Shown: piece after piece, positions 9,609 to 46,834 of the stretch | Position numbering within the stretch: the first letter of the stretch is position 1 | How the letters are laid out: the number at the start of each line of letters is the position of its first letter | DNA from: Pseudobdellovibrionaceae bacterium | GTDB taxonomy: Bacteria > Bdellovibrionota > Bdellovibrionia > Bdellovibrionales > UBA1609 | Length of the DNA stretch: 64,000 nucleotides | Reading direction: 5' to 3' | Assembly (NCBI GenBank): GCA_947444305.1 | Contig: CANEZP010000002.1 | Location: forward strand, 310,001-374,000 | Translations under genes and position numbers: made by a program | The notes under the pieces: model-generated | What the model was told of the DNA's origin: nothing | Database searches by the model: none | What the model saw: the letters and a program-made list of their open reading frames with translations, nothing else

Positions 9609-9642
9609 TACCACGTCCGTCCGGCGGACGGATGATGCTGGG

Positions 9643-9885
9643 TCTGTCTGTACAGAGTTAACGAGCTCTGTTTGTACAGAGATCTCATTTCTGTTTGTAC
9701 AGAGTTGTTCTTCCTACCTACAATTTCAGTTTCAACTCTGTACGCACAGAAAATGGTTCGGGATAGGTAGGTCCACTGACTCTGTACAAACAGAATTTAG
9801 ACTCTGTAGGTACGGAACGAACGACTCTGTACAAGCAGAGCTCCTGACTCTGTACAAGCTGAACTATCAACTCTGTACATACAGA
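9643..9885. repeat. Array of nine TCTGT-ACAGA palindromes with central orientation switch
   Basis: Nine short hairpins fill the def-fmt gap. Three read TCTGTNTGTACAGAG, starting at 9643, 9667 and 9690. Six read in the reverse sense, CTCTGTACAANCAGA, starting near 9734, 9778, 9800, 9823, 9846 and 9869. Spacing is 22-24 bp, with one double gap of 44 bp. CCTACCTA (9713-9720) and TAGGTAGG (9764-9771) bracket the centre, so 9695-9720 and 9764-9789 are extended inverted arms. Each unit is itself a CTCTGT/ACAGAG stem with a 4-nt loop. Isolated copies of the motif lie at 15521-15534 and 37614-37633. It could be a regulator-binding array, an RNA hairpin array or a REP-like element. The short open frames over it are artefacts. 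Confidence 0.85.
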
Positions 9886-15520: not shown

Positions 15521-15692
15521 TCTGTTAAAACAGAGTTCAAAAAAGCCGGAGCAATCCGGCACTGGATATCGAAAAGCCGGAGCGATCCGGCACTGGATAT
15601 CGAAAAGCCGGAGCGATCCGGCTTTTTAATGTGAGCAAGCCGGAAGCATCCGGCTTTTTGATGTGAGCAAGCCGGAGGGATCCGGCTTTTTT
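15521..15692 (+). repeat. Five tandem terminator hairpins after the FKBP gene, plus one TCTGTT/AACAGA hairpin
   Basis: Five copies of GCCGGAGCnATCCGGC-type stems occur at about 15541-15560, 15572-15591, 15603-15627, 15637-15659 and 15669-15692, with a period of 31-34 bp. The first two are separated by ACTGGATATCG and lack T-tracts. The last three end in T5-T6, and two of them are joined by ATGTGAGC. The stems are also flanked by A-tracts, so they could terminate both strands. Just before them, TCTGTTAAAACAGA (15521-15534) is a variant of the hairpin multiplied between def and fmt. Confidence 0.85.
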
Positions 15693-15787
15693 ATTTCTCG
15701 CGTACGATTCGATTTTTTTCCACATAGATAAAATGAAAAAACAGAAGAAGAACTAGCGTCCCAGCCTTGAGGAGGGTCAATTCTCTA

Positions 15788-15903
15788 AGGCGTCGAAATG
15801 AACAAATCGGTGCGAGGTCGCTCTCGTTGGATTTCTAATCTATTTAAAATTGCCCATTGCTACTGATTCGACGACACCCCGGCATTTGTTCATTTCGACG
15901 CCT
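15788..15903. mobile_element. REPIN-like element, copy 1 (20-bp inverted arms)
   Basis: AGGCGTCGAAATGAACAAAT at 15788-15807 is repeated as a perfect inverse at 15884-15903, enclosing 76 bp. The same arms enclose a different 57-bp centre at 46644-46748. Paired inverted short repeats around a variable middle are the form of REPINs or very small non-autonomous elements. No transposase is encoded inside. The remaining parts of the 15513-15969 gap (15693-15787 and 15904-15969) show no gene. Confidence 0.75.
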
Positions 15904-15969
15904 CTCGCGGGGACGCTCCCGCCGGCCGCGCAGAGTTCGGGGCCCGCGCGGTCCGCCGGGCGAACTCGA

Positions 15970-44447: not shown

Positions 44448-46306
44448 CGAATCACATTGCCCTGGTCGGTTCGCCCAACTCGGGCAAAACAACCCTCTTC
44501 AACTGGCTGACCGGCTCGAAATTCAAAACCGTGAATTACGCGGGCTCGACCGTCGACGCGCACCGGGGTTCTACTTTGCCGGTGTACGGCCCGGCCCTTA
44601 CCGTTTTGGATACGCCCGGTATTTATTCTTTGCAGCCGCACGGGCGCGACGAAGAAGTAACCTTAGAGACTTTGACCGCGACCGATGATGTGCGGGCGGT
44701 GATCTTAGTGATCGACGGCACGCAACTGAACCGCCAGCTCTATCTCGTGCGGCAAATGCAGGAGCTTGGGTTACCGATGGTCCTGGCCGTCACGATGATG
44801 GACATCGTGAAAGAGTCAGGCCGCCGCTTAGATTTAGAAAAGTTGAGCGAACTTTGCGATGCGCCCGTCGTGCGCGTCGACGGCCGTTTAGGCGGAGGCG
44901 TGATCGACGTCGTCGAGGCCGCGCGCAGTTTATCTACGGTTCATCCCGGCCGTCGCGCGCGTGGGCTACAGTGGGACGACGCGCGGATTGAACGCGAGAT
45001 ATCGGTGGCCGAAGCGTGGACTAAACTTGTTGTATTTAAAGCGCCTGATCGGCTTACCCTAGATCACCTACGCCGGTGGGACCGCATTTTGCTGCACCCA
45101 TGGTGGGGGATCCTTACTTTCTTTCTCATCATGGGCACATTGTTTTCGTCGATCTTTTGGGTCGCCGCACCCGCGATGGATTTGGTGGACGCGGCTTTCT
45201 CGGCGCTCGCTTCCGGTTTAAATTCCGTACTCGGTGAGAACGCCTTTTCGGATTTTGTTTCGAACGGTGTCGTGGCCGGCGTCGGCGCGGTGTTAGTGTT
45301 CGTGCCGCAGATTTTTATTTTGTTTTTTGGTTTCACTTTGCTCGAGGATTCGGGCTACCTCGCCCGCGCGGCCACGATCGTCGACCGGCCCCTGCACAAA
45401 TTGGGTTTGAGCGGCCGCGCCTTCGTGCCGATCCTCTCCGGTTTTGCCTGCGCGGTGCCCGCGGTGATGGCTTCGCGAAACATCCGCTCCGCGCGCGAGC
45501 GTTGGATCACCGTCTTTATTATTCCGTTCATGACTTGCTCGGCCCGGTTGCCGGTCTACGCTTTATTGCTCACGTTTCTTTTCCATGACCAGCCGGCTTG
45601 GAAGGGCGGGGTCGCTTTGACCGGTTTGTACATCGGTGGCCTGTTTATCGGTTCGGTCGCGGCGATGATTCTAAATCGCATATTAAAGAAAAGCGCCGAC
45701 TCGCATTTTTTGATGGAGCTTCCCATTTACCGCTGGCCCAAGCCCGGCTTTACTTTGCACATCGCTCTACGGCGCACGATCTCGTACGTGAAGCGCGCGG
45801 GTCCCACGATTTTTGTTTTCGTTTTGATTCTGTGGATCGGCACGCATTTTCCCTACCAAAGCGGCGTCACGCCCGAGGTTCAGTTGCGCGAGAGCGTGAT
45901 CGGCCGGGTCGGCGTTGCGGTTGAGCCCGTGTTTCATCCCATGGGTCTCGATTGGCGCGCGGGCCTGGGCATGATGTCGGCCTTCGTCGCGCGCGAAGTT
46001 TTCGTTTCCTCGTTGGCGGTTATCTTCAGCATCGCCGATACCGATGCTTCTTTGCAGGACACGTTGCTCACGCGTATGCGCGAGGCGACCTTTACCGACG
46101 GGCGTGCGATCTTCACCGGTGCGAGCGTCACGGGCTTGATTTTATTTTTCATGATCGCGCTGCAATGCCTGAGCACGACCGGCATCACTTGGCGCGAAAT
46201 GGGCTCCTGGAAATACGCCGTCGGCCAACTCATCGTCATGAACGCCTTGGCCTACATCGTCGCGGTCGCGGCCGTCCAATCCCTCCGCGCTCTGGGCATC
46301 GGCTGA
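44429..46306 (+). CDS. feoB: Ferrous iron transport protein B
   Basis: It has 625 residues from ATG 44429, shorter than the ~770-residue enterobacterial protein. The N-terminal G domain has GSPNSGKTTLFNWLTG (G1), GSTVDAHRG, and VLDTPGIYSLQPHGRDE (G3). The membrane part has the FeoB Gate and C domains: GYLARAATIVDRPLHKLGLSGRAFVPILSGFACAVPAVMASRNI, and IIPFMTCSARLPVYALL with the Cys implicated in transport. It imports Fe(II) across the inner membrane. No Fur box was recognised upstream of feoA. The last 165 bp overlap an antisense HTH gene. Confidence 0.95.
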   Translation: MSVDQIANHIALVGSPNSGKTTLFNWLTGSKFKTVNYAGSTVDAHRGSTLPVYGPALTVLDTPGIYSLQPHGRDEEVTLETLTATDDVRAVILVIDGTQLNRQLYLVRQMQELGLPMVLAVTMMDIVKESGRRLDLEKLSELCDAPVVRVDGRLGGGVIDVVEAARSLSTVHPGRRARGLQWDDARIEREISVAEAWTKLVVFKAPDRLTLDHLRRWDRILLHPWWGILTFFLIMGTLFSSIFWVAAPAMDLVDAAFSALASGLNSVLGENAFSDFVSNGVVAGVGAVLVFVPQIFILFFGFTLLEDSGYLARAATIVDRPLHKLGLSGRAFVPILSGFACAVPAVMASRNIRSARERWITVFIIPFMTCSARLPVYALLLTFLFHDQPAWKGGVALTGLYIGGLFIGSVAAMILNRILKKSADSHFLMELPIYRWPKPGFTLHIALRRTISYVKRAGPTIFVFVLILWIGTHFPYQSGVTPEVQLRESVIGRVGVAVEPVFHPMGLDWRAGLGMMSAFVAREVFVSSLAVIFSIADTDASLQDTLLTRMREATFTDGRAIFTGASVTGLILFFMIALQCLSTTGITWREMGSWKYAVGQLIVMNALAYIVAVAAVQSLRALGIG

Positions 46307-46630
46307 TCCTTCTGCGAAGCGGGCTTCGTCCGTTGGGCGTGGCCTGAGTTCGGAGCGTCCGGCCGAAAGCGAGGTGTCTACCGAAAGCATGAAGCGGAAT
46401 TCCGGACAAAGCCTGGCGAGGTAATGAAACAACTGATTGATGGTCAGCCTTTCCAATGTCTTGTTCTGAACGCGACTCACGTTCGCGCGGGACGTTCCCA
46501 TGAGTATCGCGGCTTGCCGCTGGTTCAATTGTTTACGTTGGATCGTCCGATCGATCGCGACGCAAAGTTCAAGCTTCATCGGATCAAGAAGTCCATTCTC
46601 GGTCGCAAGGTATTCGGGCGGACGTGACAT
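46142..46630 (-). CDS. HTH (XRE-type) protein with tail overlapping feoB
   Basis: The frame has 162 residues. Residues ~10-95 match the short XRE/HTH_37 family found in many HigA-like antitoxins: MKLELCVAIDRTIQRKQLNQRQAAILMGTSRANVSRVQNKTLERLTINQLFHYLARLCPEF as an idea, with the helix-turn-helix in NQRQAAILMGTSRANVSRV. The last ~65 residues are Arg/Asp/Ala-rich, are read antisense to the feoB 3' end, and do not look like a folded domain. The ORF may have lost its natural stop. No toxin gene is beside it. It may be a vestigial or orphan regulator. Confidence 0.6.
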   Translation of the reverse strand: MSRPPEYLATENGLLDPMKLELCVAIDRTIQRKQLNQRQAAILMGTSRANVSRVQNKTLERLTINQLFHYLARLCPEFRFMLSVDTSLSAGRSELRPRPTDEARFAEGSADAQSAEGLDGRDRDDVGQGVHDDELADGVFPGAHFAPSDAGRAQALQRDHEK

Positions 46631-46643
46631 TAAGGCTCCTCAA

Positions 46644-46748
46644 GCAAAGGCGTCGAAATGAACAAATCAAGGGCCTGCGCGATCGTGAGAGATTTCAGGT
46701 TCTCCACGTAAGCGTACGCACCCTATTTGTTCATTTCGACGCCTTTGC
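46644..46748. mobile_element. REPIN-like element, copy 2
   Basis: Perfect inverted arms of 24 bp (46644-46667 and 46725-46748) contain the same 20-bp core as copy 1, AGGCGTCGAAATGAACAAAT at 46648-46667. The 57-bp centre is unrelated in sequence to the centre of copy 1. It lies 14 bp upstream of the HTH gene start, on the side where that gene's promoter would be expected. Confidence 0.75.
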
Positions 46749-46834
46749 AATATACGCTGTCGGGGCTCCGACCCACCAAAGCGGGACTGTCTGATTTCCG
46801 AATGGAAAATCGGACGGGCCGGTGGTCCGCCGGC

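Follow-up and report, generated by a model that had tools for sequence, protein, structure and literature searches.

A family of 27 species-specific, dyad-symmetric, intergenic elements of about 135 bp was found in the genome to which the window (the whole stretch of DNA analysed, 64,000 nucleotides) belongs; the family is described as a REPIN-like repeat, for which no cognate transposase was found in the genome and the copies of which are probably kept at present as binding sites of a putative protein. The whole explanation, namely a mobile-derived family with arms that would be retained as a two-part duplex-DNA site of this protein, was drawn from sequence and is given a probability of roughly one half.

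The window is part of contig C2 (genome of 4.17 Mb, 29 contigs, 97.5% complete). The sequence AGGCGTCGAAATGAACAAAT was found exactly at four positions of the window, listed below, in full agreement with the two pairs of inverse and identical 20-bp arms of the initial annotation; chance expectation in the window, 0.02 matches (≤3 mismatches). The spacers of the two copies (76 bp vs 57 bp) gave no match to each other; the earlier statement that the centres differ completely stands for these two, which do not align, but not for the family as a whole, where weak symmetric positions are common to flanks and centres.

15769–15922, no strand: long-form copy 1 of the element, 114 bp when measured by the 19-bp arm cores; outer flanks weakly kept
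15788–15807, + strand: left 20-bp arm of copy 1, exact consensus
15808–15883, no strand: centre of copy 1, 76 bp, about 18 bp over the usual 57/58 bp, the extra lying around the dyad
15884–15903, − strand: right 20-bp arm of copy 1, exact consensus
46629–46763, no strand: common-form copy 2 of the element, 95 bp when measured by the 19-bp arm cores
46648–46667, + strand: left 20-bp arm of copy 2, exact consensus
46668–46724, no strand: centre of copy 2, 57 bp, T-C-A at the dyad
46725–46744, − strand: right 20-bp arm of copy 2, exact consensus

An HTH_37 (XRE-like) ORF (46142–46630), which overlaps the end of feoB on the opposite strand, has its start 18 bp from the left arm of copy 2, with the arm upstream of it; the product of this ORF is a candidate binder of the arms. 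Two further features of the window were recorded: five tandem terminator-like hairpins of 31–32 bp (AAGCCGGAGCGATCCGGCTTTTT) at 15543–15700, between an FKBP gene and copy 1, and clustered TCTGTTTGTACAGAG-type palindromes at 9640–9830, resembling repeated operator sites.

Genome-wide census: 54 arms were found at ≤2 mismatches (45 exact 19-mers); the reversed pattern gave none in the same genome at the same threshold. All 54 fall in 27 inverted pairs, at 24 places, and no single arm was found in the 4.17 Mb at ≤2 mismatches, so that the count of paired and single copies suggested at the outset came to 27 and 0. A sequence-only profile built from the 27 copies recovered those 27 on both strands, and no degraded or weaker copy was returned by the profile search of the genome up to E = 10. 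Pair lengths, counted arm to arm on the 19-bp core: 95 bp (n = 14), 96 bp (n = 11), 113 bp (n = 1) and 114 bp (n = 1, the window copy at 15788); the last two depart from the usual spacing by 18 bp, a non-integer number of helical turns, which weighs against the explanation given above. The initial annotation had named an outcome of only two copies and no Y1 transposase as adverse to it; the genome holds 27 copies and 24 Y1_Tnp hits.

Both halves of every element were folded onto each other to give one profile. In this profile there is almost no variation from −1 to +18; GGCGCA at −14 to −9, beyond the arms, is weakly conserved, and weakly symmetric positions were found between the arms (CG at +25/26, AA at +33/34, T at +46). 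All 14 copies of 95 bp have T-[GC]-A at the dyad, which is also where the 96-bp copies carry their additional base. Conservation stops about 18–20 bp beyond the arms. Mean identity between halves was 98.1% (arm), 42.8% (outer 19 bp), 37.7% (inner) and 26.7% (far flank), with a background of 25.4%.

For the count of substitutions 50 arms were used, the second member of each tandem pair on C8 and C10 being left out; 10 substitutions were found, none compensated in the partner arm, and 7 of them are A to G at two positions (A8G and A13G; clustering P ~0.0015). In the tandem duplicate on C8 the arms match at 39/40 positions and the centre at 47/57, with no gap bases in the element, and the flanks match at about 71/99 with 24 gap bases over about 100 aligned bases. 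A neutral burst that left arms 98% alike would leave centres about 98% alike, so that the simplest reading, taken from one genome of one strain, appears to be that the arms and their spacing are under purifying selection site by site. Some of this contrast is usual in REPINs, since the true RAYT REPs of the genus also have arms more conserved than spacers (arm/inner identity 0.97/0.55 in a same-genus relative, 0.88/0.50 for the REP of this genome).

The near-constant spacing, the conserved T-S-A at the dyad and the uncompensated arm changes taken together argue for a two-part duplex site rather than a hairpin or a recent transposition burst. The 20-bp arm alone gave no hairpin on folding and lacks internal symmetry. 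Outer GGCGC and arm together may form a 5-bp stem in 31–52 of the 54 halves, the reversed or reverse-complemented outer part folding equally well; left and right halves outside the arms match no better than halves from different elements, so that selection for pairing is not apparent in that region. An RNA element, in which transcribed arms would pair to a 20-bp hairpin near gene ends and serve as a transcript-end, stability or processing signal, is considered quite improbable: strong RNA hairpins are predicted (−44 to −69 kcal/mol), the elements are often downstream of genes and several right arms are followed by T-rich runs, but these runs are not conserved, pairing alone needs neither an invariant sequence nor a constant 57/58-nt loop, neither RNA covariation nor compensatory change was seen in the family, and no Rfam match was obtained in the window or the scanned element loci.

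The places are scattered through the genome (chi-square p = 0.11) and lie mostly 3' of genes: about 10 are convergent, about 10 co-directional and at most one divergent, gene orientation having been assigned by ORF length, not annotation. The elements avoid divergent promoters. No common function was found among the neighbours (Pfam; 20 neighbouring genes and the window neighbours), and no constant orientation of the elements relative to the contigs was seen. An operator of a regulon was rejected on the mostly downstream position and the unrelated functions of the neighbours. Inverted recombination sites, at which a DNA invertase would flip the short centre, are scarcely credible here; identical inverted arms do enclose unrelated centres at many loci, but nearly all centres are of about 57 bp and lie mostly downstream of genes rather than in promoters, and the arms lack internal symmetry. 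At two loci (L038, 2132–2755; L048, 2122–3048) the stop of the neighbouring gene (AAA TGA) is inside the arm, the element providing the gene end.

Relatedness among the centres falls from 97% through 82%, 79% and 68% down to background. The element on C1 (L039) and that on C4 (L043) have centres 79% identical and flanks unrelated past 18 bp; the element was therefore copied whole to another site. Tandem duplication (276 and 248 bp) accounts for two more of the related pairs, and no recent dispersed copies were seen among the 27. Simple duplication, already doubted in the initial annotation, was rejected: flanks and centres differ. As to a MITE of a DDE transposon, no target-site duplication was found at any offset, the flanks being too diverged to retain one, and no arm pair in the assembly encloses a gene, as an autonomous partner with the same ends would.

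No arm pair was found in the 140 further genomes of the order that were searched (exact 16-mer, profile, and pattern with 2 mismatches); these gave isolated half-arms only, at chance level, and those inspected were in or beside coding sequence, without a partner arm. In 84,980 GTDB genomes two lone matches were obtained, in apparent coding sequence and without a partner arm; in viral contigs, 8 lone matches, which is chance level for a 16-mer. Same-genus orthologues of one element-flanking protein are 39–55% identical; the lineage is thus long, and the age of the family cannot be read from its absence in relatives.

RAYT test: the flanks of the 24 Y1_Tnp hits were inspected as far as the contigs reach, and the arm was beside none of them. 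The single clear RAYT of the genome (L090, C12:104–778), of a clade functioning in the genus, is flanked by its own REP, GGCGCTCCCCACT[GC]CTGG (35 genomic copies); it is 51% and 43% identical to two RAYTs of the same-genus relative G003 and adjoins the same outer-membrane-like gene as the second of these. The expectation of a RAYT or other Y1 gene between copies of the studied arm was thus not borne out. In G003 one RAYT has a AAAGGTACCAGCTTCCTT arm on either side and the other is enclosed by arms of the AAAGGTAGGGGCTAACATTTCCG type, both repeats having tens of genomic copies each; as a positive control this indicates that the flank test works in this lineage, and, the RAYT–REP arrangement being present, that the studied arm takes no part in it. 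The two distinct RAYT–REPIN systems of G003 (L181 and L182, contig C22) are about 13 kb apart. Among the Y1 genes of the window's genome (L083–L106), at least 11 from different groups are preceded, by about 100–250 bp, by an 11-bp hairpin; 6 of its pairs covary on both sides, its tail GGCC...AGGACG is conserved, and Rfam returned nothing for the loci that were scanned.

AAAGG stands at the outer edge of all four repeat types, and AAAGGCG is common to the studied arm and the REP of the same genome; this match is a hint, not proof, of a common, RAYT-related origin. Mobility in trans by a RAYT, as first proposed for the window, has only partial support. A REPIN family so moved, with arms that persist since only intact-armed copies are recopied, is a possible reading about which doubt prevails; the enzyme would come from the C12 gene and serve two REP types, or be another Y1 protein or the product of a gene absent from the assembly. 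All arms are paired at fixed spacing and intergenic, related copies are dispersed, a bona fide RAYT is present among the Y1 hits, the same-genus relative has two RAYT–REPIN families in inverted pairs (one with pairs of about 97–108 bp), and the spacers of published REPINs are themselves highly diverse (PMC8049555). Against it, no Y1 gene is arm-flanked, the arm alone is not a hairpin, singlets and decaying copies are absent, unlike in SBW25 and the relative, and the centres are over-diverged for a recent burst. Recognition of the arms by a protein, the alternative already offered by the initial annotation, agrees better with the data than a RAYT does, the binder itself being putative.

In the preferred reading each element would offer two 20-bp recognition sites in inverted orientation, spaced at a set distance on either side of the conserved T-S-A centre; a putative sequence-specific protein encoded elsewhere, acting as a dimer or in a larger assembly, would bind the two arms on duplex DNA. 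The family, probably of a non-autonomous REPIN/MITE-like kind, would formerly have spread by whole-element copying, as seen for the one dispersed pair, and the present copies would each be maintained by host-level selection for recognition of the arms. It is conceivable, if unlikely, that the host adopted a former mobile repeat as lineage-specific, chromosome-wide paired sites, the putative protein bridging two inverted 20-bp sites, e.g., to organise the chromosome or to control replication or recombination. With its invariant arms and saturated centres, the family opens a direct way to ask whether a host has appropriated a selfish repeat, and it supplies bait DNA of known sequence for hunting the binder.

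Comparison with known systems: a REP is a short, imperfect palindrome carrying a GTAG-like tag that stays unpaired, and REP/REPIN families usually show decay (singlets, broken copies). ERIC-type repeats are 127-bp intergenic palindromes conserved over the whole element; the studied element is likewise an intergenic palindrome of similar length, with essentially the arms alone conserved. CGTC-tagged REPs have 8–9 bp stems and 4–5 nt loops, are mostly paired and are reported without a dedicated transposase (PMC3733652); the studied arm has CGTC near its outer end and its copies are paired, but the 8–9 bp stem is absent from it, and membership was rejected. The REPINs of Pseudomonas fluorescens SBW25 (GI/GII) consist of inverted conserved 16-mers at a fixed spacing of 71 or 110 bp (PMC3116915); the studied family shares with them inverted conserved ends, fixed spacing, a less conserved spacer, intergenic position, non-autonomy and dispersal, and differs in having no arm-flanked RAYT, singlets, decay or recent dispersed copies, an arm that alone is unfolded, and spacers near saturation. 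The RAYT–REP families of the genus (the GTAG and KpnI-site types of G003 and the own GGCGCTCCCCACT type) have in common with it the inverted pairs and the AAAGG edge, and one of them a similar total length; unlike it, they flank a Y1 gene, the G003 families have singles and several length classes, and the own GGCGCTCCCCACT arms are less conserved (0.88). The elements were not filed as REPINs because neither a RAYT flanked by the arm nor singlets were found; for the REP hairpin a possible stem was obtained, together with controls that fold equally well. In behaviour the elements resemble paired sites for recognition by a protein, in construction REPINs.
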